This document shows, piece after piece, positions 1,497 to 37,633 of a DNA stretch of 64,000 bases. The DNA comes from Odiellus spinosus (Eukaryota; Arthropoda; Arachnida; Opiliones; Phalangiidae): positions 8,186,504-8,250,503 of the forward strand of contig OY987239.1 of assembly GCA_963920705.1 (NCBI GenBank). The letters run 5' to 3'. A program made the position numbers and the translations under genes. The notes beneath the pieces are model-generated. The model made no database searches. It was not told the DNA's origin and was given only the letters and a program-made list of their open reading frames with translations. Every line of letters begins with the position of its first letter. Positions within the stretch are counted from its first letter, which is position 1.

Positions 1497-1571
1497 CTAA
1501 AAATATTGAGGTATATTATCAGGGTTGTTGATTTCTGGGTTTTTATAAATATAAAAAATGTTTTAGTCAAG

Positions 1572-21245: not shown

Positions 21246-21414
21246 ACGACCCCCGCGAGCCTGCCGGGTGTGGGCGACACCACAGAGCCGATACACTACC
21301 TATTGGCATCATGATATAAAAATTAATAGCATATTACAATGTAATAAAGCATCATGATATAAAAATTAATAGCATATTACAATGTAATAAAGCAAATAAC
21401 AAACCTTTACAGTC

Positions 21415-21486
21415 GGGCCCCGCCGGGATTTGAACCCGGGACCTCTCGCACCCGAAGCGAGAATTATACCCCTGGCCCACAGAGCC
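21415..21486 (-). tRNA. trnP-CGG: tRNA-Pro(CGG) copy 1
   Basis: A spacer. The A box is altered (TGGGCCAGGGG) and GAATTATACC differs from the consensus GAATCATACC. Confidence 0.75.
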
Positions 21487-21569
21487 GATGCACTACCCAT
21501 TGGCATCATGATATAAAAATGAACATCATATTACATTCTAATCAAACAAGTAACGAAAGTATTACCGTC

Positions 21570-21641
21570 GGACCCCGCCGGGAATTGAACCCGGGACCTC
21601 TCGCACCCGAAGCGAGAATCATACCCCTAGACCACAGAGCC
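21570..21641 (-). tRNA. trnP-CGG: tRNA-Pro(CGG) copy 2
   Basis: C spacer; C-to-T at position 71 gives a G-U acceptor pair. Confidence 0.85.
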
Positions 21642-21723
21642 GATACACTATGCATTGGCATCATGATATAGAAATTAATAGCATATTACAATGTAATAAA
21701 GCAAATAACAAAACATTACAGTC

Positions 21724-21795
21724 GGGCCCCGCCGGGATTTGAACCCGGGACCTCTCGCACCCAAAGCGAGAATCATACCCCTAGACCACAGAGCC
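21724..21795 (-). tRNA. trnP-TGG: tRNA-Pro(TGG) copy 3
   Basis: A-like spacer; consensus body. Confidence 0.9.
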
Positions 21796-21878
21796 GATAC
21801 ACTAAGCATTGTCATCATGATATAAAAATGAACATCATATTACATTCTAATCAAACAATTAACGAAAGTATTACCGTC

Positions 21879-21950
21879 GGGCCCCGCCGAGAATTGAACC
21901 CGGGACCTCTCGCACCCGAAGCGAGAATCATACCCCTAGACCACAGAGCC
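21879..21950 (-). tRNA. trnP-CGG: tRNA-Pro(CGG) copy 4
   Basis: C spacer; one T-stem change leaves a G-U pair. Confidence 0.85.
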
Positions 21951-22032
21951 GATACACTATGCATTGGCATCATGATATAGAAATTAATAGCATATTACAA
22001 TGTAATAAAGCAAATAAGAAACCTTTACAGTC

Positions 22033-22104
22033 GGGCCCCGCCGGGATTTGAACCCGGGACCTCTCGCACCCAAAGCGAGAATCATACCCCTAGACCACAG
22101 AGCC
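22033..22104 (-). tRNA. trnP-TGG: tRNA-Pro(TGG) copy 5
   Basis: A spacer; consensus. Confidence 0.92.
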
Positions 22105-22187
22105 GTTACACTAAGCATTGGCATCATGATATAAAAATGAACATCATATTACATTCTAATCAAACAAGTAACGAAAGTATTACCGTC

Positions 22188-22259
22188 GGGCCCCGCCGGG
22201 AACTGAACCCGGGACCTCTCGCACCCGAAGCGAGAATCATACCGCTAGACCACAGAGCC
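22188..22259 (-). tRNA. trnP-CGG: tRNA-Pro(CGG) copy 6
   Basis: C spacer; T-loop TTCAGTT and a D-loop change (TAGCGG). Confidence 0.8.
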
Positions 22260-22341
22260 GATACACTATCCATTGGCATCATGATATAAAAATTAATAGC
22301 ATATTACAATGTAATAAAGCAAATAAGAAACCTTTACAGTC

Positions 22342-22413
22342 GGGCCCCGCCGGGATTTGAACCCGGGACCTCTCGCACCCAAAGCGAGAATCATACCCCT
22401 AGACCACAGAGCC
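22342..22413 (-). tRNA. trnP-TGG: tRNA-Pro(TGG) copy 7
   Basis: A spacer; consensus. Confidence 0.92.
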
Positions 22414-22496
22414 GCTACACTATGCATTGGCATCATGATATAAAAATGAACATCATATTACATTCTAATCAAAGAAGTAACGAAAGTATTACCGTC

Positions 22497-22568
22497 GGGC
22501 CCCGCCGGGATTTGAACACGGGACCTCTCGCACCCAAAGCGAGAATCATACCCCTAGACCACAGAGCC
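22497..22568 (-). tRNA. trnP-TGG: tRNA-Pro(TGG) copy 8
   Basis: C spacer with a TGG body (recombinant type). GAACACGGG breaks one T-stem pair. Confidence 0.75.
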
Positions 22569-22648
22569 AATACACTAAGCATTGGCATCATGATATATAA
22601 ATGAACATATTACATTCTAATCAAACAAGTAACGAAAGTATTACCGTC

Positions 22649-22720
22649 GGGCCCCGCCGGGAATTGCACCCGGGACCTCTCGCACCCGAAGCGAGAATCA
22701 TACCCCTAGACCACAGAGCC
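22649..22720 (-). tRNA. trnP-CGG: tRNA-Pro(CGG) copy 9
   Basis: C spacer; GTTC of the B box is changed to GTGC. Confidence 0.7.
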
Positions 22721-22803
22721 GATACACTAAGCATTGTCATCATGATATAAAAATGAACATCATATTACATTCTAATCAAACAAATAACGAAAGTACTACC
22801 GTC

Positions 22804-22865
22804 GGGCATTGAACCCGGGACCTCTCGCACCCGAAGCGAGAATCATACCCCTAGACCACAGAGCC
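22804..22865 (-). pseudogene. tRNA-Pro(CGG) copy 10, truncated
   Basis: 62 nt only: about 10 nt of the 3' acceptor and T-stem strand are deleted, so no cloverleaf forms. The identical deletion in copy 13 shows that the block was duplicated. Confidence 0.9.
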
Positions 22866-22947
22866 GATACACTATCCATTGGCATCATGATATAAAAATT
22901 AATAGCATATTACAATGTAATAAAGCTAATAACAAAACATTACAGTC

Positions 22948-23019
22948 GGGCCCCGCCGGGATTTGAACCCGGGGCCTCTCGCACCCAAAGCGAGAACCAT
23001 ACCCCTAGACCACAGAGCC
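22948..23019 (-). tRNA. trnP-TGG: tRNA-Pro(TGG) copy 11
   Basis: A-like spacer; two changes (GGTCCC to GGCCCC, ATGATT to ATGGTT). Confidence 0.85.
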
Positions 23020-23101
23020 GATACACTACCCAATGGCATCATGATATAAAAATTAATAGCATATTACAAAGTAATAAAGCAAATAACAAACCTTTACAGT
23101 C

Positions 23102-23173
23102 GGGCCCCGCCGGGATTTGAACCCGGGACCTCTCGCACCCGAAGCGAGAATCATACCCCTAGACCACAGAGCC
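23102..23173 (-). tRNA. trnP-CGG: tRNA-Pro(CGG) copy 12
   Basis: A spacer with a CGG anticodon but the TGG-type T-loop; a point conversion of the anticodon. Confidence 0.88.
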
Positions 23174-23256
23174 GATACACTAAGCATTGTCATCATGATA
23201 TAAAAATGAACATCATATTACATTCTAATCAAACAAATAACGAAAGTACTACCGTC

Positions 23257-23318
23257 GGGCATTGAACCCGGGACCTCTCGCACCCGAAGCGAGAATCATA
23301 CCCCTAGACCACAGAGCC
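23257..23318 (-). pseudogene. tRNA-Pro(CGG) copy 13, truncated
   Basis: Same 3' deletion as copy 10. Confidence 0.9.
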
Positions 23319-23400
23319 GATACACTATCCATTGGCATCATGATATAAAAATTAATAGCATATTACAATGTAATAAAGCAAATAACAAAACTTTATTGTC

Positions 23401-23472
23401 GGGCCCCGCCGGGATTTGAACCCGGGGCCTCGCGCACCCAAAGCGAGAACCATACCCCTAGACCACAGAGCC
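23401..23472 (-). tRNA. trnP-TGG: tRNA-Pro(TGG) copy 14
   Basis: A-like spacer; CTCGCGCACC breaks an anticodon-stem pair. Confidence 0.75.
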
Positions 23473-23554
23473 GATACGCTACCCATTGGCATCATGATAT
23501 AAAAATTAATAGCATATTACAAAGAAATAAAGCAAATAACAAACCTTTACAGTC

Positions 23555-23626
23555 GGGCCCCGCCGGGATTTGAACCCGGGACCTCTCGCACCCAAAGCGA
23601 GAATCATACCCCTAGACCACAGAGCC
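23555..23626 (-). tRNA. trnP-TGG: tRNA-Pro(TGG) copy 15
   Basis: A spacer; consensus. Confidence 0.92.
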
Positions 23627-23708
23627 GATACACTAGCCATTGGCATCATGATATAAAAATTAATAGCATATTACAATGTAATAAAGCAAATAACAAAACT
23701 TTACAGTC

Positions 23709-23780
23709 GGGTCCCGCCTGGATTTGAACCCGGAACCTCTCGCACCCAAAGCGAGAATCATACCCCTAGACCACAGAGCC
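23709..23780 (-). tRNA. trnP-TGG: tRNA-Pro(TGG) copy 16
   Basis: A-like spacer; three acceptor/T-arm substitutions. Confidence 0.75.
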
Positions 23781-23863
23781 GTTACACTAAGCATTGGCAT
23801 CATGATATAAAAATGAACATCATATTACATTCTAATCAAACAAGTAACGAAAGTATTACCGTC

Positions 23864-23935
23864 GGGCCTCGCCGGGAATTGAACCCGGGACCTCTCGCAC
23901 CCGAAGCGAGAATCATACCCCTAGACCACAGAGCC
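23864..23935 (-). tRNA. trnP-CGG: tRNA-Pro(CGG) copy 17
   Basis: C spacer; one acceptor change. Confidence 0.85.
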
Positions 23936-24017
23936 GATACGTTACCCATTGGCATCATGATATAAAAATTAATTGCATATTACAATGTAATAAAGCAAAT
24001 AACAAACCTTTACAGTC

Positions 24018-24089
24018 GGGCCCCGCCGGGTTTTGAACCCGGGACCTCTCGCACCCAAAGCGAGAATCATACCCCTAGACCACAGAGCC
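24018..24089 (-). tRNA. trnP-TGG: tRNA-Pro(TGG) copy 18
   Basis: A spacer; T-loop TTCAAAA. Confidence 0.88.
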
Positions 24090-24171
24090 GATACAGTACC
24101 CATTGGGATCATGATATAAAAATTAATTGCATATTACAATGTAATAAAGCATATAACAGAACTTTACAGTC

Positions 24172-24243
24172 GGGCCCCGCCGGGATTTGAACCCGGGACC
24201 TCTCGCACCCAAAGCGAGAATCATACCCCTAGACCACAGAGCC
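24172..24243 (-). tRNA. trnP-TGG: tRNA-Pro(TGG) copy 19
   Basis: A-like spacer; consensus. Confidence 0.92.
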
Positions 24244-24325
24244 GATACACTATGCAATGGCATCATGATATAAAAATTAATAGCATATTACAAGGTAATA
24301 AAGCAAATAACCAAACTTTACAGTC

Positions 24326-24397
24326 GGGCCCCGCCGGGATTTGAACCCGGGACTTCTCGCACCCAAAGCGAGAATCATACCCCTAGACCACAGAGCC
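24326..24397 (-). tRNA. trnP-TGG: tRNA-Pro(TGG) copy 20
   Basis: A-like spacer; one variable-arm change. Confidence 0.9.
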
Positions 24398-24480
24398 GTT
24401 ACACTAAGCATTGGCATCATGATATAAAAATGAACATCATATTACATTCTAATCAAACAAGTAACGAAAGTATTACCGTC

Positions 24481-24552
24481 GGGCCCCGCCGGGATTTGAA
24501 CCCGGGACCTCTCGCACCCGAAGTGAGAATCATACCCCTAGACCACAGAGCC
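24481..24552 (-). tRNA. trnP-CGG: tRNA-Pro(CGG) copy 21
   Basis: C spacer; GAAGTGAG puts an A-C mismatch in the anticodon stem. Confidence 0.75.
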
Positions 24553-24634
24553 GATATGTTACCCATTGGCATCATGATATAAAAATTAATTGCATATTAC
24601 AATGTAATAAAGCAAATAACAAACCTTTACAGTC

Positions 24635-24706
24635 GGGCCCCGCCGGGATTTGAACCCGGGACCTCTCGCACCCAAAGCGAGAATCATACCCCTAGACCAC
24701 AGAGCC
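24635..24706 (-). tRNA. trnP-TGG: tRNA-Pro(TGG) copy 22
   Basis: A spacer; consensus. Confidence 0.92.
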
Positions 24707-24789
24707 GTTACACTAAGCATTGGCATCATGATATAAAAATGAACATCATATTACATTCTAATCAAACAAGTAACGAAAGTATTACCGTC

Positions 24790-24861
24790 GGGCCCCGCCG
24801 GGATTTGAACCCGGGACCTCTCGCACCCAAAGCGAGAATCATACCCCTAGACCACAGAGCC
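24790..24861 (-). tRNA. trnP-TGG: tRNA-Pro(TGG) copy 23
   Basis: C spacer; consensus TGG body. Confidence 0.92.
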
Positions 24862-24944
24862 GATATGTTACCCATTGGCATCATGATATAAAAATGAACA
24901 TCATATTACATTCTAATCAAACAAGTAACGAAAGTATTACCGTC

Positions 24945-25016
24945 GGGCCCCGCCGGGATTTGAACCCGGGACCTCTCGCACCCGAAGTGAGAATCATACC
25001 CCTAGACCACAGAGCC
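24945..25016 (-). tRNA. trnP-CGG: tRNA-Pro(CGG) copy 24
   Basis: C spacer; same anticodon-stem mismatch as copy 21. Confidence 0.75.
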
Positions 25017-25099
25017 GATACACTAAGCATTGGCATCATGATATAAAAATGAACATCATATTACATTCTAATCAAACAAGTAACGAAAGTATTACAGTC

Positions 25100-25171
25100 G
25101 GGCCCCGCCGGGATTTGAACCCGGGACCTCTCGCACCCAAAGCGAGAATCATACCCCTAGACCACAGAGCC
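25100..25171 (-). tRNA. trnP-TGG: tRNA-Pro(TGG) copy 25
   Basis: C/A hybrid spacer (ATTACAGTC). Confidence 0.92.
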
Positions 25172-25254
25172 GTTACACTAAGCATTGGCATCATGATATA
25201 AAAATGAACATCATATTACATTCTAATCAAACAAGTAACGAAAGTATTACCGTC

Positions 25255-25326
25255 GGGCCCCGCCGGGAATTGAACCCGGGACCTCTCGCACCCGAAGCGA
25301 GAATCATACCCGTAGACCACAGAGCC
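25255..25326 (-). tRNA. trnP-CGG: tRNA-Pro(CGG) copy 26
   Basis: C spacer; D-loop TACGGG. Confidence 0.85.
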
Positions 25327-25408
25327 GATATGTTACCCATTGGCATCATGATATAAAAATTAATTGCATATTACAATGTAATAAAGCAAATAACAAACCT
25401 TTACAGTC

Positions 25409-25480
25409 GGGCCCCGCCGGGATTTGAACCCGGGACCTCTCGCACCCAAAGCGAGAATCATACCCCTAGACCACAGAGCC
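25409..25480 (-). tRNA. trnP-TGG: tRNA-Pro(TGG) copy 27
   Basis: A spacer; consensus. Confidence 0.92.
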
Positions 25481-25562
25481 GATACACTATGCAATGGCAT
25501 CATGATATAAAAATTAATTGCATATTAGAATGTAATAAAGCAAATAACAAAACTCTACAGTC

Positions 25563-25634
25563 GGGCCCCGCCGGGATTTGAACCCGGGACCTCTCGCACC
25601 CAAAGCGAGAATCATACCCCTAGACCACAGAGCC
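25563..25634 (-). tRNA. trnP-TGG: tRNA-Pro(TGG) copy 28
   Basis: B spacer; consensus. Confidence 0.92.
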
Positions 25635-25717
25635 GTTACACTAAGCATTGGCATCATGATATAAAAATGAACATCATATTACATTCTAATCAAACAAGTA
25701 ACGAAAGTATTACCGTC

Positions 25718-25789
25718 TGGCCCCGCCGGGATTTGAACCCGGGACCTCTCGCACCCAAAGCGAGAATCATACCCCTAGACCACAGAGCC
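25718..25789 (-). tRNA. trnP-TGG: tRNA-Pro(TGG) copy 29
   Basis: C spacer; discriminator base C changed to A. Confidence 0.88.
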
Positions 25790-25872
25790 GTTACACTAAG
25801 CATTGGCATCATGATATAAAAATGAACATCATATTACATTCTAATCAAACAAGTAACGAAAGTATTACCGTC

Positions 25873-25944
25873 GGGCCCCGCCGGGAATTGAACCCGGGAC
25901 CTCTCGCACCCGAAGCGAGAATCATACCCCTAGACCACAGAGCC
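25873..25944 (-). tRNA. trnP-CGG: tRNA-Pro(CGG) copy 30
   Basis: C spacer; consensus CGG body with T-loop TTCAATT. Confidence 0.92.
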
Positions 25945-26026
25945 GATATGTTACCCATTGGCATCATGATATAAAAATTAATTGCATATTACAATGTAAT
26001 AAAGCAAATAACAAACCTTTACAGTC

Positions 26027-26098
26027 GGGCCCCGCCGGGATTTGAACCCGGGACCTCTCGCACCCAAAGCGAGAATCATACCCCTAGACCACAGAGCC
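26027..26098 (-). tRNA. trnP-TGG: tRNA-Pro(TGG) copy 31
   Basis: A spacer; start of the regular six-gene higher-order repeat. Confidence 0.92.
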
Positions 26099-26180
26099 GA
26101 TACACTATGCAATGGCATCATGATATAAAAATTAATTGCATATTAGAATGTAATAAAGCAAATAACAAAACTCTACAGTC

Positions 26181-26252
26181 GGGCCCCGCCGGGATTTGAA
26201 CCCGGGACCTCTCGCACCCAAAGCGAGAATCATACCCCTAGACCACAGAGCC
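26181..26252 (-). tRNA. trnP-TGG: tRNA-Pro(TGG) copy 32
   Basis: B spacer. Confidence 0.92.
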
Positions 26253-26335
26253 GTTACACTAAGCATTGGCATCATGATATAAAAATGAACATCATATTAC
26301 ATTCTAATCAAAAGAGTAACGAAAGTATTACCGTC

Positions 26336-26407
26336 GGGCCCCGCCGGGAATTGAACCCGGGACCTCTCGCACCCGAAGCGAGAATCATACCCCTAGACCA
26401 CAGAGCC
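26336..26407 (-). tRNA. trnP-CGG: tRNA-Pro(CGG) copy 33
   Basis: C' spacer (CAAAAGAG). Confidence 0.92.
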
Positions 26408-26489
26408 GATATGTTACCCATTGGCATCATGATATAAAAATTAATTGCATATTACAATGTAATAAAGCAAATAACAAACCTTTACAGTC

Positions 26490-26561
26490 GGGCCCCGCCG
26501 GGATTTGAACCCGGGACCTCTCGCACCCAAAGCGAGAATCATACCCCTAGACCACAGAGCC
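26490..26561 (-). tRNA. trnP-TGG: tRNA-Pro(TGG) copy 34
   Basis: A spacer. Confidence 0.92.
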
Positions 26562-26644
26562 GTTACACTAAGCATTGGCATCATGATATAAAAATGAACA
26601 TCATATTACATTCTAATCAAACAAGTAACGAAAGTATTACCGTC

Positions 26645-26716
26645 GGGCCCCGCCGGGATTTGAACCCGGGACCTCTCGCACCCAAAGCGAGAATCATACC
26701 CCTAGACCACAGAGCC
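26645..26716 (-). tRNA. trnP-TGG: tRNA-Pro(TGG) copy 35
   Basis: C spacer. Confidence 0.92.
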
Positions 26717-26799
26717 GTTACACTAAGCATTGGCATCATGATATAAAAATGAACATCATATTACATTCTAATCAAACAAGTAACGAAAGTATTACCGTC

Positions 26800-26871
26800 G
26801 GGCCCCGCCGGGAATTGAACCCGGGACCTCTCGCACCCGAAGCGAGAATCATACCCCTAGACCACAGAGCC
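26800..26871 (-). tRNA. trnP-CGG: tRNA-Pro(CGG) copy 36
   Basis: C spacer. Confidence 0.92.
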
Positions 26872-26953
26872 GATATGTTACCCATTGGCATCATGATATA
26901 AAAATTAATTGCATATTACAATGTAATAAAGCAAATAACAAACCTTTACAGTC

Positions 26954-27025
26954 GGGCCCCGCCGGGATTTGAACCCGGGACCTCTCGCACCCAAAGCGAG
27001 AATCATACCCCTAGACCACAGAGCC
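26954..27025 (-). tRNA. trnP-TGG: tRNA-Pro(TGG) copy 37
   Basis: A spacer. Confidence 0.92.
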
Positions 27026-27107
27026 GATACACTATGCAATGGCATCATGATATAAAAATTAATTGCATATTAGAATGTAATAAAGCAAATAACAAAACTC
27101 TACAGTC

Positions 27108-27179
27108 GGGCCCCGCCGGGATTTGAACCCGGGACCTCTCGCACCCAAAGCGAGAATCATACCCCTAGACCACAGAGCC
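27108..27179 (-). tRNA. trnP-TGG: tRNA-Pro(TGG) copy 38
   Basis: B spacer. Confidence 0.92.
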
Positions 27180-27262
27180 GTTACACTAAGCATTGGCATC
27201 ATGATATAAAAATGAACATCATATTACATTCTAATCAAAAGAGTAACGAAAGTATTACCGTC

Positions 27263-27334
27263 GGGCCCCGCCGGGAATTGAACCCGGGACCTCTCGCACC
27301 CGAAGCGAGAATCATACCCCTAGACCACAGAGCC
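27263..27334 (-). tRNA. trnP-CGG: tRNA-Pro(CGG) copy 39
   Basis: C' spacer. Confidence 0.92.
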
Positions 27335-27416
27335 GATATGTTACCCATTGGCATCATGATATAAAAATTAATTGCATATTACAATGTAATAAAGCAAATA
27401 ACAAACCTTTACAGTC

Positions 27417-27488
27417 GGGCCCCGCCGGGATTTGAACCCGGGACCTCTCGCACCCAAAGCGAGAATCATACCCCTGGACCACAGAGCC
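27417..27488 (-). tRNA. trnP-TGG: tRNA-Pro(TGG) copy 40
   Basis: A spacer; A box TGGTCCAGGGG. Confidence 0.9.
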
Positions 27489-27570
27489 GATACACTATGC
27501 AATGGCATCATGATATAAAAATTAATTGCATATTAGAATGTAATAAAGCAAATAACAAAACTCTACAGTC

Positions 27571-27642
27571 GGGCCCCGCCGGGATTTGAACCCGGGACCT
27601 CTCGCACCCAAAGCGAGAATCATACCCCTAGACCACAGAGCC
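27571..27642 (-). tRNA. trnP-TGG: tRNA-Pro(TGG) copy 41
   Basis: B spacer. Confidence 0.92.
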
Positions 27643-27725
27643 GTTACACTAAGCATTGGCATCATGATATAAAAATGAACATCATATTACATTCTAATCA
27701 AAAGAGTAACGAAAGTATTACCGTC

Positions 27726-27797
27726 GGGCCCCGCCGGGAATTGAACCCGGGACCTCTCGCACCCGTAGCGAGAATCATACCCCTAGACCACAGAGCC
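27726..27797 (-). tRNA. trnP-CGG: tRNA-Pro(CGG) copy 42, U33 lost
   Basis: C' spacer. The anticodon loop is TACGGGT, so invariant U33 is A; decoding is probably impaired. Confidence 0.75.
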
Positions 27798-27879
27798 GAT
27801 ATGTTACCCATTGGCATCATGATATAAAAATTAATTGCATATTACAATGTAATAAAGCAAATAACAAACCTTTACAGTC

Positions 27880-27951
27880 GGGCCCCGCCGGGATTTGAAC
27901 CCGGGACCTCTCGCACCCAAAGCGAGAATCATACCCCTAGACCACAGAGCC
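27880..27951 (-). tRNA. trnP-TGG: tRNA-Pro(TGG) copy 43
   Basis: A spacer. Confidence 0.92.
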
Positions 27952-28034
27952 GTTACACTAAGCATTGGCATCATGATATAAAAATGAACATCATATTACA
28001 TTCTAATCAAACAAGTAACGAAAGTATTACCGTC

Positions 28035-28106
28035 GGGCCCCGCCGGGATTTGAACCCGGGACCTCTCGCACCCAAAGCGAGAATCATACCCCTAGACCAC
28101 AGAGCC
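28035..28106 (-). tRNA. trnP-TGG: tRNA-Pro(TGG) copy 44
   Basis: C spacer. Confidence 0.92.
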
Positions 28107-28189
28107 GTTACACTAAGCATTGGCATCATGATATAAAAATGAACATCATATTACATTCTAATCAAACAAGTAACGAAAGTATTACCGTC

Positions 28190-28261
28190 GGGCCCCGCCG
28201 GGAATTGAACCCGGGACCTCTCGCACCCGAAGCGAGAATCATACCCCTAGACCACAGAGCC
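28190..28261 (-). tRNA. trnP-CGG: tRNA-Pro(CGG) copy 45
   Basis: C spacer. Confidence 0.92.
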
Positions 28262-28343
28262 GATATGTTACCCATTGGCATCATGATATAAAAATTAATT
28301 GCATATTACAATGTAATAAAGCAAATAACAAACTTTTACAGTC

Positions 28344-28415
28344 GGGCCCCGCCGGGATTTGAACCCGGGACCTCTCGCACCCAAAGCGAGAATCATACCC
28401 CTGGACCACAGAGCC
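28344..28415 (-). tRNA. trnP-TGG: tRNA-Pro(TGG) copy 46
   Basis: A spacer; A box TGGTCCAGGGG. Confidence 0.9.
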
Positions 28416-28497
28416 GATACACTATGCAATGGCATCATGATATAAAAATTAATTGCATATTAGAATGTAATAAAGCAAATAACAAAACTCTACAGTC

Positions 28498-28569
28498 GGG
28501 CCCCGCCGGGATTTGAACCCGGGACCTCTCGCACCCAAAGCGAGAATCATACCCCTAGACCACAGAGCC
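28498..28569 (-). tRNA. trnP-TGG: tRNA-Pro(TGG) copy 47
   Basis: B spacer. Confidence 0.92.
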
Positions 28570-28652
28570 GTTACACTAAGCATTGGCATCATGATATAAA
28601 AATGAACATCATATTACATTCTAATCAAAAGAGTAACGAAAGTATTACCGTC

Positions 28653-28724
28653 GGGCCCCGCCGGGAATTGAACCCGGGACCTCTCGCACCCGAAGCGAGA
28701 ATCATACCCCTAGACCACAGAGCC
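28653..28724 (-). tRNA. trnP-CGG: tRNA-Pro(CGG) copy 48
   Basis: C' spacer. Confidence 0.92.
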
Positions 28725-28806
28725 GATATGTTACCCATTGGCATCATGATATAAAAATTAATTGCATATTACAATGTAATAAAGCAAATAACAAACCTTT
28801 ACAGTC

Positions 28807-28878
28807 GGGCCCCGCCGGGATTTGAACCCGGGACCTCTCGCACCCAAAGCGAGAATCATACCCCTAGACCACAGAGCC
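28807..28878 (-). tRNA. trnP-TGG: tRNA-Pro(TGG) copy 49
   Basis: A spacer. Confidence 0.92.
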
Positions 28879-28961
28879 GTTACACTAAGCATTGGCATCA
28901 TGATATAAAAATGAACATCATATTACATTCTAATCAAACAAGTAACGAAAGTATTACCGTC

Positions 28962-29033
28962 GGGCCCCGCCGGGATTTGAACCCGGGACCTCTCGCACCC
29001 AAAGCGAGAATCATACCCCTAGACCACAGAGCC
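28962..29033 (-). tRNA. trnP-TGG: tRNA-Pro(TGG) copy 50
   Basis: C spacer. Confidence 0.92.
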
Positions 29034-29116
29034 GTTACACTAAGCATTGGCATCATGATATAAAAATGAACATCATATTACATTCTAATCAAACAAGTAA
29101 CGAAAGTATTACCGTC

Positions 29117-29188
29117 GGGCCCCGCCGGGAATTGAACCCGGGACCTCTCGCACCCGAAGCGAGAATCATACCCCTAGACCACAGAGCC
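29117..29188 (-). tRNA. trnP-CGG: tRNA-Pro(CGG) copy 51
   Basis: C spacer. Confidence 0.92.
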
Positions 29189-29270
29189 GATATGTTACCC
29201 ATTGGCATCATGATATAAAAATTAATTGCATATTACAATGTAATAAAGCAAATAACAAACCTTTACAGTC

Positions 29271-29342
29271 GGGCCCCGCCGGGATTTGAACCCGGGACCT
29301 CTCGCACCCAAAGCGAGAATCATACCCCTAGACCACAGAGCC
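29271..29342 (-). tRNA. trnP-TGG: tRNA-Pro(TGG) copy 52
   Basis: A spacer. Confidence 0.92.
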
Positions 29343-29424
29343 GATACACTATGCAATGGCATCATGATATAAAAATTAATTGCATATTAGAATGTAATAA
29401 AGCAAATAACAAAACTCTACAGTC

Positions 29425-29496
29425 GGGCCCCGCCGGGATTTGAACCCGGGACCTCTCGCACCCAAAGCGAGAATCATACCCCTAGACCACAGAGCC
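29425..29496 (-). tRNA. trnP-TGG: tRNA-Pro(TGG) copy 53
   Basis: B spacer. Confidence 0.92.
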
Positions 29497-29579
29497 GTTA
29501 CACTAAGCATTGGCATCATGATATAAAAATGAACATCATATTACATTCTAATCAAAAGAGTAACGAAAGTATTACCGTC

Positions 29580-29651
29580 GGGCCCCGCCGGGAATTGAAC
29601 CCGGGACCTCTCGCACCCGAAGCGAGAATCATACCCCTAGACCACAGAGCC
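29580..29651 (-). tRNA. trnP-CGG: tRNA-Pro(CGG) copy 54
   Basis: C' spacer. Confidence 0.92.
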
Positions 29652-29733
29652 GATATGTTACCCATTGGCATCATGATATAAAAATTAATTGCATATTACA
29701 ATGTAATAAAGCAAATAACAAACCTTTACAGTC

Positions 29734-29805
29734 GGGCCCCGCCGGGATTTGAACCCGGGACCTCTCGCACCCAAAGCGAGAATCATACCCCTAGACCACA
29801 GAGCC
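29734..29805 (-). tRNA. trnP-TGG: tRNA-Pro(TGG) copy 55
   Basis: A spacer. Confidence 0.92.
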
Positions 29806-29888
29806 GTTACACTAAGCATTGGCATCATGATATAAAAATGAACATCATATTACATTCTAATCACACAAGTAACGAAAGTATTACCGTC

Positions 29889-29960
29889 GGGCCCCGCCGG
29901 GATTTGAACCCGGGACCTCTCGCACCCAAAGCGAGAATCATACCCCTAGACCACAGAGCC
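29889..29960 (-). tRNA. trnP-TGG: tRNA-Pro(TGG) copy 56
   Basis: C spacer (CACACAAG variant); duplicated unit that makes this repeat seven genes long. Confidence 0.92.
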
Positions 29961-30043
29961 GTTACACTAAGCATTGGCATCATGATATAAAAATGAACAT
30001 CATATTACATTCTAATCAAACAAGTAACGAAAGTATTACCGTC

Positions 30044-30115
30044 GGGCCCCGCCGGGATTTGAACCCGGGACCTCTCGCACCCAAAGCGAGAATCATACCC
30101 CTAGACCACAGAGCC
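30044..30115 (-). tRNA. trnP-TGG: tRNA-Pro(TGG) copy 57
   Basis: C spacer. Confidence 0.92.
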
Positions 30116-30198
30116 GTTACACTAAGCATTGGCATCATGATATAAAAATGAACATCATATTACATTCTAATCAAACAAGTAACGAAAGTATTACCGTC

Positions 30199-30270
30199 GG
30201 GCCCCGCCGGGAATTGAACCCGGGACCTCTCGCACCCGAAGCGAGAATCATACCCCTAGACCACAGAGCC
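30199..30270 (-). tRNA. trnP-CGG: tRNA-Pro(CGG) copy 58
   Basis: C spacer. Confidence 0.92.
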
Positions 30271-30352
30271 GATATGTTACCCATTGGCATCATGATATAA
30301 AAATTAATTGCATATTACAATGTAATAAAGCAAATAACAAACCTTTACAGTC

Positions 30353-30424
30353 GGGCCCCGCCGGGATTTGAACCCGGGACCTCTCGCACCCAAAGCGAGA
30401 ATCATACCCCTGGACCACAGAGCC
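30353..30424 (-). tRNA. trnP-TGG: tRNA-Pro(TGG) copy 59
   Basis: A spacer; A box TGGTCCAGGGG. Confidence 0.9.
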
Positions 30425-30506
30425 GATACACTATGCAATGGCATCATGATATAAAAATTAATTGCATATTAGAATGTAATAAAGCAAATAACAAAACTCT
30501 ACAGTC

Positions 30507-30578
30507 GGGCCCCGCCGGGATTTGAACCCGGGACCTCTCGCACCCAAAGCGAGAATCATACCCCTAGACCACAGAGCC
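30507..30578 (-). tRNA. trnP-TGG: tRNA-Pro(TGG) copy 60
   Basis: B spacer. Confidence 0.92.
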
Positions 30579-30661
30579 GTTACACTAAGCATTGGCATCA
30601 TGATATAAAAATGAACATCATATTACATTCTAATCAAAAGAGTAACGAAAGTATTACCGTC

Positions 30662-30733
30662 GGGCCCCGCCGGGAATTGAACCCGGGACCTCTCGCACCC
30701 GTAGCGAGAATCATACCCCTAGACCACAGAGCC
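30662..30733 (-). tRNA. trnP-CGG: tRNA-Pro(CGG) copy 61, U33 lost
   Basis: C' spacer; U33 replaced by A, as in copy 42. Confidence 0.75.
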
Positions 30734-30815
30734 GATATGTTACCCATTGGCATCATGATATAAAAATTAATTGCATATTACAATGTAATAAAGCAAATAA
30801 CAAACCTTTACAGTC

Positions 30816-30887
30816 GGGCCCCGCCGGGATTTGAACCCGGGACCTCTCGCACCCAAAGCGAGAATCATACCCCTAGACCACAGAGCC
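30816..30887 (-). tRNA. trnP-TGG: tRNA-Pro(TGG) copy 62
   Basis: A spacer. Confidence 0.92.
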
Positions 30888-30970
30888 GTTACACTAAGCA
30901 TTGGCATCATGATATAAAAATGAACATCATATTACATTCTAATCAAACAAGTAACGAAAGTATTACCGTC

Positions 30971-31042
30971 GGGCCCCGCCGGGATTTGAACCCGGGACCT
31001 CTCGCACCCAAAGCGAGAATCATACCCCTAGACCACAGAGCC
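30971..31042 (-). tRNA. trnP-TGG: tRNA-Pro(TGG) copy 63
   Basis: C spacer. Confidence 0.92.
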
Positions 31043-31125
31043 GTTACACTAAGCATTGGCATCATGATATAAAAATGAACATCATATTACATTCTAATCA
31101 AACAAGTAACGAAAGTATTACCGTC

Positions 31126-31197
31126 GGGCCCCGCCGGGAATTGAACCCGGGACCTCTCGCACCCGAAGCGAGAATCATACCCCTAGACCACAGAGCC
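31126..31197 (-). tRNA. trnP-CGG: tRNA-Pro(CGG) copy 64
   Basis: C spacer. Confidence 0.92.
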
Positions 31198-31279
31198 GAT
31201 ATGTTACCCATTGGCATCATGATATAAAAATTAATTGCATATTACAATGTAATAAAGCAAATAACAAACCTTTACAGTC

Positions 31280-31351
31280 GGGCCCCGCCGGGATTTGAAC
31301 CCGGGACCTCTCGCACCCAAAGCGAGAATCATACCCCTGGACCACAGAGCC
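31280..31351 (-). tRNA. trnP-TGG: tRNA-Pro(TGG) copy 65
   Basis: A spacer; A box TGGTCCAGGGG. Confidence 0.9.
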
Positions 31352-31433
31352 GATACACTATGCAATGGCATCATGATATAAAAATTAATTGCATATTAGA
31401 ATGTAATAAAGCAAATAACAAAACTCTACAGTC

Positions 31434-31505
31434 GGGCCCCGCCGGGATTTGAACCCGGGACCTCTCGCACCCAAAGCGAGAATCATACCCCTAGACCACA
31501 GAGCC
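31434..31505 (-). tRNA. trnP-TGG: tRNA-Pro(TGG) copy 66
   Basis: B spacer. Confidence 0.92.
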
Positions 31506-31588
31506 GTTACACTAAGCATTGGCATCATGATATAAAAATGAACATCATATTACATTCTAATCAAAAGAGTAACGAAAGTATTACCGTC

Positions 31589-31660
31589 GGGCCCCGCCGG
31601 GAATTGAACCCGGGACCTCTCGCACCCGTAGCGAGAATCATACCCCTAGACCACAGAGCC
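31589..31660 (-). tRNA. trnP-CGG: tRNA-Pro(CGG) copy 67, U33 lost
   Basis: C' spacer; U33 replaced by A, as in copy 42. Confidence 0.75.
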
Positions 31661-31742
31661 GATATGTTACCCATTGGCATCATGATATAAAAATTAATTG
31701 CATATTACAATGTAATAAAGCAAATAACAAACCTTTACAGTC

Positions 31743-31814
31743 GGGCCCCGCCGGGATTTGAACCCGGGACCTCTCGCACCCAAAGCGAGAATCATACCCC
31801 TAGACCACAGAGCC
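31743..31814 (-). tRNA. trnP-TGG: tRNA-Pro(TGG) copy 68
   Basis: A spacer. Confidence 0.92.
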
Positions 31815-31897
31815 GTTACACTAAGCATTGGCATCATGATATAAAAATGAACATCATATTACATTCTAATCAAACAAGTAACGAAAGTATTACCGTC

Positions 31898-31969
31898 GGG
31901 CCCCGCCGGGATTTGAACCCGGGACCTCTCGCACCCAAAGCGAGAATCATACCCCTAGACCACAGAGCC
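31898..31969 (-). tRNA. trnP-TGG: tRNA-Pro(TGG) copy 69
   Basis: C spacer. Confidence 0.92.
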
Positions 31970-32052
31970 GTTACACTAAGCATTGGCATCATGATATAAA
32001 AATGAACATCATATTACATTCTAATCAAACAAGTAACGAAAGTATTACCGTC

Positions 32053-32124
32053 GGGCCCCGCCGGGATTTGAACCCGGGACCTCTCGCACCCGAAGTGAGA
32101 ATCATACCCCTAGACCACAGAGCC
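32053..32124 (-). tRNA. trnP-CGG: tRNA-Pro(CGG) copy 70
   Basis: C spacer; anticodon-stem mismatch (GAAGTGAG). Confidence 0.75.
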
Positions 32125-32206
32125 GATACACTACCCATTGGCATCATGATATAAAAATTAATTGCATTTTAGAATGTAATAAAGCAAATAACAAAACTCT
32201 ACAGTC

Positions 32207-32278
32207 GGGCCCCGCCGGGATTTGAACCCGGGACCTCTCGCACCCAAAGCGAGAATCATACCCCTAGACCACAGAGCC
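32207..32278 (-). tRNA. trnP-TGG: tRNA-Pro(TGG) copy 71
   Basis: B spacer. Confidence 0.92.
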
Positions 32279-32361
32279 GTTACACTAAGCATTGGCATCA
32301 TGATATAAAAATGAACATCATATTACATTCTAATCAAACAAGTAACGAAAGTATTACCGTC

Positions 32362-32433
32362 GGGCCCCGCCGGGAATTGAACCCGGGACCTCTCGCACCC
32401 GAAGCGAGAATCATACCCCTAGACCACAGAGCC
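32362..32433 (-). tRNA. trnP-CGG: tRNA-Pro(CGG) copy 72
   Basis: C spacer. Confidence 0.92.
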
Positions 32434-32515
32434 GATATGTTACCCATTGGCATCATGATATAAAAATTAATTGCATATTACAATGTAATAAAGCAAATAA
32501 CAAACCTTTACAGTC

Positions 32516-32587
32516 GGGCCCCGCCGGGATTTGAACCCGGGACCTCTCGCACCCAAAGCGAGAATCATACCCCTAGACCACAGAGCC
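32516..32587 (-). tRNA. trnP-TGG: tRNA-Pro(TGG) copy 73
   Basis: A spacer. Confidence 0.92.
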
Positions 32588-32669
32588 GATACACTATGCA
32601 ATGGCATCATGATATAAAAATTAATTGCATATTAGAATGTAATAAAGCAAATAACAAAACTCTACAGTC

Positions 32670-32741
32670 GGGCCCCGCCGGGAATTGAACCCGGGACCTC
32701 TCGCACCCGAAGCGAGAATCATACCCCTAGACCACAGAGCC
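32670..32741 (-). tRNA. trnP-CGG: tRNA-Pro(CGG) copy 74
   Basis: B spacer with a CGG body, a recombinant between classes. Confidence 0.9.
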
Positions 32742-32823
32742 CATATGTTACCCATTGGCATCATGATATAAAAATTAATTGCATATTACAATGTAATAAA
32801 GCAAATAACAAACCTTTACAGTC

Positions 32824-32895
32824 GGGCCCCGCCGGGATTTGAACCCGGAACCTCTCGCACCCAAAGCGAGAATCATACCCCTAGACCACAGAGCC
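32824..32895 (-). tRNA. trnP-TGG: tRNA-Pro(TGG) copy 75
   Basis: A spacer; one T-stem change (CCGGAACC). Last copy before the 4.4-kb insertion. Confidence 0.88.
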
Positions 32896-32946
32896 GTTAC
32901 ACTAAGCATTGGCATCATGATATAAAAATGAACATCATATTACATT

Positions 32947-34329
32947 ATATCAAAAATGTCTTTGCGAACAAAGACCCAGAAGGACATGTTATGGCCTTGA
33001 ATGTCTGAAGTGACAGATATTTAATTTTCTTTTAAAACATGAAATTTAAATACAATTAGATTTTCTTTTAAAACGAAATTTAAATATAATCACAATCTGG
33101 CACGATTTAGAGTTTCAAATTTCAATACAACTGATTTTATTCACTCGGAAATATTTAAGAAAAACATAACAGACGATTTTCTCCCATTGACGCTTAACAT
33201 TAAATTTCGCTAAATTATTTTTCAGGGAAAACGTGTATTGAACTGTTATTTTTCAGTATAACGCGAGTCCACTTTATGTTTTCTTAGTTTAACCCGAATT
33301 TCCACGACTCGCAATTGAACGGATCGTTAAAAATACTCGCCGGTTTATTGGAATGGGTATATGATAAAGGGAAATGTGTTTTTTAAAGCCCGTTTAAAGT
33401 CACCTTCTTTTCTAGCTTAGCAGACGACGCAAACCATAACAATTTGTACTTTCAAAGCTATATTGCGCGCGCAAGCGGAGAGAATTTCAAAGCGTCGAAT
33501 TTTAGAGCGGATAAGCTTTTTAAATAAATTGTAATACTTTCATTTTTCTTTTCATTAAAACCGTACAATTAAAATGAGGATTTCCATAAGGGACCACTAA
33601 TTAGTTATTAGGAGTTATAAAAAAACATCCATGAATTAGGTTTGTTCGTTTGCAACCCAAGTTAAAAATTAAAATATGGTGAATTTTTATTCCCTTTAAA
33701 TTCCTTGTATAAGCATCCGTAAGCTAACATGAACGAATTGCCTCGACTAAAGTCGAGGAGTTGTAATAAAACATTATCCATGGATTAGGTTTGTTCGTTT
33801 GCAACCTAGATTAAAAATTAAAATATGGGGAATTTTTTTCCCTTTAAATTCCTTGATAAGCATTCATAAGCTAACATGAACGAGAACGAATTGCCTCGAC
33901 TAAAGTCGAAGAGTTATAATAAAGCATTATCCATAGAAAACATTATCCAATTAAGGTATGAGATCAGATCATAGAACTTTGAGTCTATGCCTAAAGCCAA
34001 AGCTAAATTAAGTATATTTTTCTATCGAAATTTAATGTTAAGCGTCAATGGGAGAAAATCGTCTGTTATGTTTTTCTTAAATATTTCCGAGTGAATAAAA
34101 TCAGTTGTATTGAAATTTGAAACTCTAAATCGTGCCAGATTGTGATTATATTTAAATTTCGTTTTAAAAGAAAATCTAATTGTATTTAAATTTCATGTTT
34201 TAAAAGAAAATTTAATTGTATTTAAATTTAATGTTTTAAAAGAAAATTAAATATCTGTCACTTCAGACATTCAAGGCCATAACATGTCCTTCTGGGTCTT
34301 TGTTCGCAAAGACATTTTTGATATAATAT
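32947..34329. repeat. Long inverted-repeat unit, about 270-300-bp arms
   Basis: The left arm 32947-33213 starts TATATCAAAAATGTCTTTGC and contains GAGTTTCAAATTTCAATACA. The right arm 34026-34329 is its complement, with one extra copy of the TTTTAAAAGAAAATTTAATT block. The interior has a roughly 150-bp direct duplication (33610-33756 and 33758-33915) around GGTTTGTTCGTTTGCAACC. Confidence 0.85.
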
Positions 34330-34390
34330 CTGTCACTTCAGTCTAACACGAAAGTGTTAACTTCTATATTAAAAGACTAGCCCTTTAAAA

Positions 34391-36440
34391 AGTGATTCAG
34401 TCAAATCTCTACATTTTTACCATTGCCCTTTAAACCCAATTAAAATTAATTTTTTCATAATTTTTGATGTTAATAGCTGCGGCAGCCGCACTTGATTCAG
34501 TCAAATCTCTACATTTTTACCATTGCCCTTTAATCCCAATTAAAAAAAAATTTACATTATTTTTGATGTTAATAGCTGGGGCAGCCTCACTTGATTCAGT
34601 CAGATCTCTACATTTTTACCATTGCCCTTTAATCCCAATTAAAATAAATTTTTACATTATTTTTGATGTTAATAGCTGGGGGAGCCGCACTTGATTCAGT
34701 CAAATCTCTACATTTTTACCATTGCCCTTTAATTCCAATTAAAAAAAAAATTTACATTATTTTTGATGTTAATAGCTGGGAGAGCCGCACTTGATTCAGT
34801 CAAATCTCTACATTTTTACCATTGCCCTTTAATCCCAATTAAAATTAATTTTTACATTTTTTTGATGTTAATAGCTGGGGCAGCCGCACTTGATTTAGTC
34901 AAATTTCTACATTTTTACCATTGCCCTTTAAACCTAATTAAACTAAATTTTTTCATAATTTTTGATGTTAATGGCTGGGGCAGCCGCACTTGATTTAGTC
35001 AAATTTCTACATTTTTACCATTGCCCTTTAAACCCAATTAAAATTAATTATTTCACAATTTTTGATGTTAATAGCTGGGGCAGCCTCACTTGATTCAGTC
35101 AAATTTCTACATTTTTACCAGTGCCCTTTAATCCCAATTAAAATTTATTTTTATATTATTTTTGATGTTAATAGCTGGGGCAGCCGCACTTGATTGAGTC
35201 AGATCTCTAAATTTTTACCATTGCCCTTTAAACCCAATTAAAATTAATTATTTCACAATTTTTGATGTTAATAGCTGGGGCAGCCTCACTTGATTCAGTC
35301 AAATTTCTACATTTTTACCAGTGCCCTTTAATCCCAATTAAAATTTATTTTTTCATTATTTTTGATGTTAATAGCTGGGGCAGCCTCACTTGATTCAGTC
35401 AAACCTCTACATTTTTACCAGTGCCCTTTAATCCCAATTAAAATTAATTTTTACATTATTTTTGATGTTAATAGCTGGGGCAGCCGCACTTGATTCAGTC
35501 AGATCTCTACATTTGTACCATTGCCCTTTAAACCCAATTAAAATTAATTTTTTCATAATTTTTGATGTTAATAGCTGGGGCAGCCGCACTTGATTCAGTC
35601 AAATCTCTACATTTTTACCATTGCCCTTTAATCCCAATTAAAATTAATTTTTTCCTTATTTTTGATGTTAATAGCTGGGGCAGCCGCACTTGATTCAGTC
35701 AAATCTCTACATTTTTACCATTGCCCTTTAATCCCAATTAAAATTAATTTTTACATTTTTTTGATGTTAATAGCTGGGGCAGCCGCACTTGATTTAGTCA
35801 AATTTCTACATTTTTACCATTGCCCTTTAAACCTAATTAAACTAAATTTTTTCATAATTTTTGATGTTAATGGCTGGGGCAGCCGCACTTGATTTAGTCA
35901 AATTTCTACATTTTTACCATTGCCCTTTAAACCCAATTAAAATTAATTTTTTCATAATTTTTGATGTTAATAGCTGGGGCAGCCTCACTTGATTCAGTCA
36001 GATCTCTACATTTTCCCCATTGCCCTTTAAACCCAATTAAAATTAATTTTTTCATCAATTTTGATGTTAATAACTCCGACAGCCGCAGCGAAATCATTAT
36101 ATTTTCCCCATTGCCCTTTAAACCAAATTTAAATTAAATTTTTCATCAATTTTGATGTTAATACCTCCGACAGCCGCAGTGAAATCTTTATATTTTCCCC
36201 ATTGCCCTTTAAACCAAATTTAAATTAATTATTTCAGCAATTTTGATGTTAATACCTCCGACAGCCGCAATGAAATCTTTATATTTTCCCCATTGCCCTT
36301 TAAACCAAATTTAAATTAATTATTTCAGCAATTTTGATGTTAATACCTCCGACAGCCGCAGCGAAATCTTTATATTTTCCCCATTGCCCTTTAAACCAAA
36401 TTCCAATTAATTTTTTCATTATTTTTGATGTTAATACCTT
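34391..36440. repeat. About 100-bp satellite, about 20 copies
   Basis: Unit includes TTTTTGATGTTAATAGCTGG, GGCAGCCGCACTTGATTCAG and TTTTTACCATTGCCCTTTAA, period 99-101 bp. The last copies (from about 36050) form a diverged subfamily with TACCTCCGACAGCCGCAG and TTCCCCATTGCCC. Repeated open frames in it (MMLIAGAAALDS...) are by-products of the repeat. Confidence 0.95.
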
Positions 36441-36522
36441 CCTTATTGCCGTTCGGAATGGCAAGTCGTTCGGAATTTCACTCATTTTTAAAAAGGAGAG
36501 TACTTTTAAGGCGGAGAAATTG

Positions 36523-37033
36523 AAAATTAATGTTATTCTATGGGATTTAGATTTTTTGCAAGAGACTTACCTTTCAGATTTATTTTCTAATGCTTCCAAA
36601 TATTTTACAGGCTTTATTTTAAGACTAATTTCATAATTTTATACCGATTAGTTTGGTCACAGTCTATAAACGGCAAAAATATGAAAAAGGAGAAATTAAG
36701 TCATTAGAGTTCAATACCCATAACCTCCAAATCAAGCGCGCGCGCTCGTGCTCGTGATTTTAAAAAGCCATATAAAACCTAAGCCTAATTTGTCAAATTA
36801 GGCTTAGGTTTTTGGCGAATCTATTTCTCCGCCTTGTTGTTCCCTCCGTTTTCATAAATAGATTGTGGGCCATCTAATTGGTGTAAAATTATGAAATTAG
36901 TCTTAAAATAAAGCTCGAATCTTAATTCATACCACACGGAAAATCCAAGTCTGAAAAATATCCGGAAGTATTAGAAAATAAATCTGAAAGGTAAGCCACT
37001 TTCAAAAAACCAAATCCCATAGAATAACATTAC
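36523..37033. repeat. Foldback unit
   Basis: 36523-36642 (AATGTTATTCTATGGGATTT ... TTTCATAATTTTATACC) is complementary to 36881-37033. A smaller palindrome AACCTAAGCC...GGCTTAGGTT lies near 36795 inside. Confidence 0.8.
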
Positions 37034-37401
37034 GATTTGGCCATGCGCGAAACCAGCTAAGTACAAAAAAAAGGGTCAACTTTAGAATTAATTTTAAAAT
37101 ACTTAGACTTAATATTTTTAAATGAAACTTGAAAAGTTCAACATTCGAACCTTGCTCTACCATTTAAAAGTGATTATAGCTGTAACAAATAATTCCTCTT
37201 TTAGTTCTCTCAATCACTGGACTTGTCCTCGAAAGAGTCGATTTTAATGTTATTCTATGGGAGAATGGAGCGTTTTGATTGGCTAGAGACTGAATTTTTT
37301 AGGAAATCAAAATAGCATTACAGATGATGATGGGCCCAATACATAGAACCCTACCGGGTTCTAAGAATTCTAATCAAACAAGTAACGAAAGTATTCCCGT
37401 C

Positions 37402-37473
37402 GGGCCCCGCCGGGATTTGAACCCGGGACCTCTCGCACCCGAAGTGAGAATCATACCCCTAGACCACAGAGCC
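37402..37473 (-). tRNA. trnP-CGG: tRNA-Pro(CGG) copy 76, right of insertion
   Basis: C spacer (ATTCCCGTC); anticodon-stem mismatch GAAGTGAG, as in copy 70. Confidence 0.75.
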
Positions 37474-37555
37474 GATACACTACCCATTGGCATCATGATA
37501 TAAAAATTAATTGCATATTAGAATGTAATAAAGCAAATAACAAAACTCTACAGTC

Positions 37556-37627
37556 GGGCCCCGCCGGGATTTGAACCCGGGACCTCTCGCACCCAAAGCG
37601 AGAATCATACCCCTAGACCACAGAGCC
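37556..37627 (-). tRNA. trnP-TGG: tRNA-Pro(TGG) copy 77, array right end
   Basis: B spacer; consensus body. Array similarity ends about 3 bp past the gene. Confidence 0.92.
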
Positions 37628-37633
37628 GATAAT

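Follow-up and report, generated by a model that had tools for sequence, protein, structure and literature searches.

The tandem proline tRNA genes in a 64-kb window of the Odiellus spinosus genome (the whole stretch of DNA analysed here) are, on balance, predicted from their sequence to be a Pol III dosage array with the anatomy of a satellite, whose copies would be transcribed. tRNA arrays of this kind look like satellite DNA and may also be a working gene supply. Three possibilities had originally been raised for the locus, namely a functional dosage array, a satellite that happens to contain Pol III promoters, and an insulator or boundary structure; our results favour the dosage array over a dead satellite. 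The locus had also been taken for a single oddity. With it, the genome contains at least eight tRNA arrays, each devoted to a single amino acid.

A fuzzy search of the window revealed 77 tRNA-Pro bodies on the minus strand (anticodons TGG in 48 and CGG in 29) and one on the plus strand (Table 1). ARAGORN called 75 of the array bodies (48 TGG, 27 CGG) together with the solo copy at 48759-48830, whose body is identical to the commonest array body; the two without a call are the copies truncated by 9 nt at the 3' end. This confirms the original prediction as to copy number, anticodons, truncations, single orientation and the solitary plus-strand copy. Its period of about 154 bp also holds: TRF reports period 154 for 21349-32944, with scores also at 309 and 463, and the step between neighbours is mostly 154-155 bp. 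Rfam, at its own cut-off, reported 74 of the 77 bodies. The three absent copies (27726, 30662 and 31589) are exactly those in which U33, universal in tRNA, is replaced by A.

The notion of one continuous array has to be narrowed. It stands for 75 copies, and copies 76 and 77 lie behind a 4.5-kb insert; the left edge at 21279 is that of an 11-nt stub of a further body, not of a full copy. With many same-strand tRNA genes at regular spacing, the locus is a tandem tRNA array, and chance origin of its 77 copies is impossible. It sits on a 13.7-Mb contig (C17) of the 443-Mb assembly. An assembly artefact, in which case the copy number may be off, is improbable in the extreme: the variants are ordered, the insert is unique, the edge carries a stub and a like organisation is found on several contigs.

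Table 1. Features of the window (window coordinates) and other tRNA arrays or gene groups (by contig)
Feature	Position	Strand	Details
Left-edge stub, first 11 nt of a further tRNA-Pro body	21279..21289	-	
Left-edge duplication of a 43-bp spacer segment	21306..21394	.	TRF
Main array, copies 1-75, contiguous tRNA-Pro bodies	21415..32895	-	step 145-155 bp; ARAGORN, TRF, Rfam, fuzzy search
Conserved upstream block at -34..-19, example from copy 5: ATTTTTATATCATGAT	22123..22138	-	
Copy 10 (CGG), truncated by 9 nt at the 3' end	22794..22864	-	Rfam 29.3 bits, cut-off 29
Copy 13 (CGG), truncated as copy 10 (9 nt, 3')	23247..23317	-	Rfam 29.3 bits, cut-off 29
Homogenised core, copies 28-69	25563..31969	-	higher-order repeats of 3 and 6 monomers, mostly TGG-TGG-CGG
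Array-splitting insert, 4.5 kb	32945..37390	.	
Inverted-repeat element inside the insert	about 32945-34330	.	
100-bp satellite inside the insert	34393-36436	.	
Copies 76 (CGG) and 77 (TGG), beyond the insert	37402..37627	-	
Solo tRNA-Pro (TGG)	48759..48830	+	T5 run 6 nt behind the body; ARAGORN
tRNA-Ala array	C17:8319826-8341415	opposite to Pro array	136 bodies (68 CGC, 67 TGC, one CAA); step mostly 159-160 bp
Lys (TTT) array	C4, between 15328332 and 15353784		119 copies (117 TTT, two TGT) in three stretches totalling 28.9 kb; step mostly 148 bp
Lys (TTT) array	C5		23 copies in 3.5 kb; step 149 bp
Cys (GCA) array	C16		19 copies in 3.0 kb; step 153-155 bp
Ser array	C1		17 called in 3.0 kb (8 AGA, 8 TGA, one CGA); step 161 bp
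Pro genes	C2		8 copies in 1.5 kb, 8/8 CGG; step 148 bp
Pro genes	C12		three AGG copies in 0.6 kb; step 166 bp

The description of the array as organised like a satellite was apt. Within copies 28-69, similarity between units is 0.950 at a lag of three and 0.973 at a lag of six, against 0.895 for neighbours. Copies 1-27 have no clear order (0.884-0.910 over lags 1-9), and the array is thus diverged on the left and homogenised in its core. Concerted evolution and higher-order repeats, the marks of a satellite, are both found here. In addition, copies at several places in the array have defects in common: three carry U33A, four a broken pair in the anticodon stem and two the truncation. From the higher-order repeats, the diverged edge and the defects common to several copies, we infer that unequal crossing-over expanded and homogenised the array. 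Higher-order structure and defective copies that spread are also in keeping with the main rival to the dosage array, a mostly silent satellite grown from a tRNA gene by unequal crossing-over. Its copies would be methylated or heterochromatic, and the bodies would owe their low diversity to earlier function or to gene conversion with solo genes that are active. The P clusters of Arabidopsis, which are reported to stay silent (PMC12308677), are a precedent. We nevertheless consider a silent satellite unlikely, given the pattern of conservation outside the bodies set out below.

Nucleotide diversity (pi per site) in the Pro array is 0.025 in the bodies and 0.136 in the spacers (75 units, copies 75 and 77 being left out), so that the bodies are five times less diverse. 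The corresponding values are 0.031 and 0.111 in the Ala array (136 units) and 0.026 and 0.107 in the larger Lys array, on C4 (104 units). High-frequency variation in the Pro bodies is confined to two sites, the wobble base and canonical position 59 (the free N of box B). When the three arrays are pooled, the ratio of singleton to shared variants is 77:67 in bodies and 74:148 in spacers (p 1.5e-4), and shared variants are depleted in bodies. Taken singly, the Ala (p 0.007) and Lys (p 0.003) arrays differ in this respect and the Pro array does not (p 0.64). Nor is the difference in segregating sites significant in Pro (24 of 72 body sites, 38 of 82 spacer sites, p 0.14). For constraint in Pro alone, these two tests are non-significant, and both results count in favour of a silent satellite. 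The monomer is nonetheless not free of functional constraint as that of a satellite should be, since the body and the block at -34..-19 are far less diverse than the remaining spacer. Frequency and block analyses were restricted to units of regular length (72 Pro, 131 Ala, 104 Lys on C4, 22 Lys on C5, 18 Cys and 17 Ser).

Conservation of this 16-bp block (pi 0.005) equals or exceeds that of the bodies, and the sequence TTTTTATATCATG is found exactly upstream of 73 of the 77 Pro copies. In ten-base bins, spacer diversity falls from 0.200 (-42..-33) to 0.008 (-32..-23) and 0.036 (-22..-13) and rises again to 0.234 (-12..-3). The block is the least variable 16-bp window of the Pro spacer (permutation p 0.0066). 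Equivalent windows lie at -36..-21 in both Lys arrays (p 0.0001 on C4, 0.024 on C5) and at -39..-24 in Cys, where the result is not significant (p 0.20, 18 units); in Ala (-56..-41, p 0.0001) and Ser (-60..-45, p 0.0078) they are located further upstream. A block at about the Pro position is thus present in three of the five other arrays tested, one of the three, Cys, being non-significant. TFIIIB presumably binds at about -35 to -20, and in four of six arrays, including the non-significant Cys, the block lies about where this factor would be expected to sit. Its sequence differs from array to array.

These observations argue against a silent satellite. Gene conversion of bodies is not expected to keep a bounded block 19-36 bp upstream, and the block lies at about equal distance in several arrays with unrelated spacers. 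They also bear on the idea that TFIIIC sites make the array an insulator or boundary, for which a human tRNA tandem repeat implicated as a boundary provides a model (PMC4041453). A shared insulator motif would not be expected to differ in sequence between arrays as the upstream block does, and several isotypes have been amplified; none of the results speaks for an insulator, which we regard as highly improbable.

Most Pro copies have sound bodies, with a tRNA fold and an internal promoter: the A and B boxes both match consensus in 68 of the 77, and 61 are structurally intact (16 are damaged). Integrity differs between anticodons (TGG 45/48, CGG 16/29, p 9e-5), a p value that overstates the difference because some defects were copied. 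Few copies have a proximal terminator, a point in favour of a silent satellite. Among 72 Pro spacers, the first run of at least four T is 49-50 nt behind the body in 49, 22 nt in 7 and 10 nt in 14, and is missing in 2, so that it lies at 22-50 nt in 56 of the 72. In three solo TGG genes, T5, T7 and T8 runs follow about 6 nt behind the body, and in the other arrays the first T-run is mostly at 8-21 nt. The T5 at 49-50 nt belongs to the conserved upstream block of the next Pro gene, and the block may therefore double as terminator and start element. Rfam scores of the window family are mostly 52-54 bits (best 57.4) and those of the Pro genes on C2 and C12 are 57-60 bits, which suggests that the window family may be secondary.

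Under the dosage interpretation, the monomer of about 154 bp would be near the smallest self-sufficient tRNA unit, in which a TFIIIB-type site (about -35 to -20) precedes a 72-nt body containing the internal A and B boxes, and a T-run follows. Its length of about 150 bp would be the sum of about 35-55 bp needed upstream by TFIIIB, the 72 bp of the body and 10-50 bp up to the T-run. The arrays would grow and shrink via unequal crossing-over. Selection, to judge from the diversity data, would retain the bodies and the upstream block, acting weakly on each copy and mainly on the total of working copies. The copies would be transcribed, perhaps at a stage or in a tissue of high demand such as an oocyte or gland. 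A narrower version, in which the array is active only in the oocyte, early embryo or secretory gland and silent elsewhere, is a special case of the dosage array, with which its odds overlap; taken by itself it is somewhat doubtful. A parallel comes from the Arabidopsis SYY cluster, which according to a commentary on Parasyraki et al. is active in cells of the root tip but silent in the majority of tissues (PMC12308677).

At least seven further arrays, for Ala, Lys (two), Cys, Ser and Pro (two), have steps of 148-166 bp (Table 1). The Ala array lies 96 kb from the right end of the window array (264 kb around the window were read) and has no higher-order pattern (0.92-0.93 at all lags). Further Ser genes on C1 are found with step 161 at 8.33 Mb and, less regularly, at 8.40 Mb. 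The Pro genes on C2 and C12 were reached by a wider Pro pattern search, and the Lys and Cys arrays through the stretches around high-scoring tRNA matches. Seven of these arrays, the window array included, were found with no filter on period; their steps are 154 (Pro), 159 (Ala), 148 and 149 (Lys), 154 (Cys), 148 (Pro on C2) and 166 (Pro on C12). Spacers measure 75-94 nt in the arrays read, and no homology beyond chance was detected between those of Pro, Ala and Lys on C4, or of Lys on C4, Lys on C5 and Cys, the two sets compared. The similar steps and, where compared, unrelated spacers suggest that similar array architecture arose repeatedly for other tRNAs of this genome.

It is tentatively possible that 'tRNA satellites' have come to provide much of the tRNA supply. 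Many arrays, among them the eight read here, would independently have converged on a monomer of about 148-166 bp, because no smaller unit can seat TFIIIB upstream of a body occupied by TFIIIC and still include a terminator. Dosage would be set by satellite-style copy-number change, and purifying selection would act on the bodies and on an upstream element specific to each array. For the step alone, a nucleosome-sized constraint is an alternative. With tens to hundreds of copies per array and unrelated spacers between arrays, each array is a natural mutagenesis experiment, in which comparison of copies maps the bases outside the tRNA that matter for Pol III in O. spinosus; this touches on the question of what determines the number of tRNA genes.

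A cnidarian host, as in Hydractinia, was rejected on one let-7 match (58.5 bits, cut-off 53.5): let-7 presumably marks bilaterians, and the O. spinosus assembly would thus be bilaterian, unlike Hydractinia. Tandem tRNA arrays are known elsewhere; the present ones are a variant distinguished by a short unit with a single gene, by the presence of several isotypes and of mixed isoacceptors, and by a promoter footprint within the array. In the open-access literature searched, we came upon no bilaterian described with single-tRNA arrays whose units measure about 150 bp. Clustering for a tissue-specific demand is reported for tRNA-Ala genes of the silkworm silk gland, with about 20 copies. The Hydractinia report describes ncRNA arrays with tens to hundreds of near-identical, evenly spaced tRNA copies, whose significance is called unclear; every one of the 20 amino acids is represented, spacers measure several hundred nt or more, and tRNA arrays are mentioned for Nematostella too (PMC11067881). 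The O. spinosus arrays share the many near-identical copies, the even spacing and the coverage of several amino acids (five of the 20, Pro, Ala, Lys, Cys and Ser, were read), and differ in their much shorter spacers. They are relevant to the question, left open in that report, whether such large arrays consist of functional genes or of debris (PMC11067881). Plants have tRNA-Pro, Tyr-Ser and Ile clusters (PMC11700998, PMC12308677), with about 25-27 copies for Pro and 28 for Ile (PMC11700998); head-to-tail tRNA-Pro genes are common to both systems, whereas 77 Pro and 136 Ala copies and several isotypes exceed the about 25-28 copies at most given in the accessible parts of these reports. In Entamoeba, almost all tRNA genes are in tandem arrays, with up to five tRNA genes per unit and short tandem repeats between them (PMC2652664), whereas each unit of the arrays read here has a single tRNA gene. 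In Nematostella, zebrafish and stickleback, tRNA genes and pseudogenes are described as clustered in very large numbers, and neighbour pairs in the first two are mostly of different amino acids (PMC2888827); here each array has a single amino acid. The human 1q23.3 VNTR also consists of tandem tRNA genes and is variable in copy number, but its unit is 7.3 kb with five tRNA genes and CTCF sites (PMC4041453), unlike the one-gene unit of about 154 bp.

Other tRNA loci are not organised in arrays. Three Arg and three Lys loci have one tRNA gene each, three Thr genes on C1 and three Ala genes on C12 are irregularly spaced, two Cys genes on C3 form a pair at 171 bp, and on C13 an AGG Pro pair is 904 bp apart and a TGG gene is single. 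Neither ARAGORN nor Rfam detected a tRNA at C2:1624250-1624750. The Pro pattern has 81 matches with up to one mismatch, none of them CGG outside the window array, and 724 genome-wide with up to three. An exclusive role of the window array in supplying tRNA-Pro CGG was rejected, as all Pro genes of the C2 stretch carry this anticodon.

Genome-wide, same-orientation pairs of B-box words number 1919 at steps of 111-140, 4914 at 141-171, 569 at 172-201 and 790 at 202-231 (reversed-pattern controls 71, 68, 65 and 65), with the highest count at 141-171, followed by 111-140. Among the matches listed, all places are on C1 for the first three ranges and on C1 and C2 for the last, where minisatellites with 25- and 31-bp units hold a B-box-like word. 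These totals are not gene counts, because minisatellites inflate them and are missed by the reversed control; if the minisatellite share per range does not exceed the sparser totals (569 and 790), at least 4100 pairs remain at 141-171. B-box-bearing repeats with steps of 136, 196 and 207 are also present.

The tRNA-Pro copies missing from the Rfam listing are exactly the three CGG copies in which U33 is replaced by A. All three sit inside the higher-order repeat of the Pro array (copies 28-69, mostly TGG-TGG-CGG units).

The same contig (C17) carries a separate tRNA-Ala array, in which TGC and CGC anticodons are intermixed; 96 kb separate it from the right end of the Pro array in the window. 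At about -30 to -10 upstream of the tRNA-Ala body, the spacer of the Ala array contains GGGGGTTATAGCTCTGGAACG, which looks like a degenerate duplicate of that body's 5' end. Anticodon shifts were also observed: CAA in one of the 136 Ala bodies, and TGT in two of the 119 bodies of the Lys array on contig C4. If expressed, these shifted copies could misread codons.

Locations of the annotated features (L handles denote the stretches read)
Feature	Location	Strand	Details
ZNFX1-type gene	window 130-8670	minus	helicase and ZNFX1 domains (Pfam)
U33A tRNA-Pro CGG copies (3)	window 27726-27797, 30662-30733, 31589-31660		U33 to A
Inverted-repeat element	window 32945-34330		inside Pro array; TATCAAAAATGTCTTTGCG at each end
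Unrelated tandem repeats	window 34393-36436, 5271-5997, 8833-10511, 44193-44563, 45219-45874, 47323-47869		units 20-100 bp
tRNA-Ala array	C17:8319826-8341415 (L017-L020)	opposite to Pro array	136 copies
Long tRNA-Ser array	C1 about 8.123-8.401 Mb (L040-L042)		AGA and TGA intermixed; step 161 bp; parts of span read

The window also contains a solo tRNA-Ser (AGA) at 45908-45990, whose body closely resembles those of the Ser array on contig C1. Exons resembling the ZNFX1-type gene by eye occur in neighbouring stretches (C17:8134705-8151064 and 8182901-8186566), and this likeness suggests tandem paralogues.

Among the matches listed in the genome-wide search for paired B-box words, a B-box-bearing repeat at C1:15.77-15.98 Mb has steps near 136, 184 and 219 bp. 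Both orientations are present in this repeat, whereas the tRNA arrays run one way. Regular B-box repeats with steps of 196 and 207 bp, identified by their B-box matches, are also among the matches listed, at C1:24059170-24066824 and C1:23787278-23793282.
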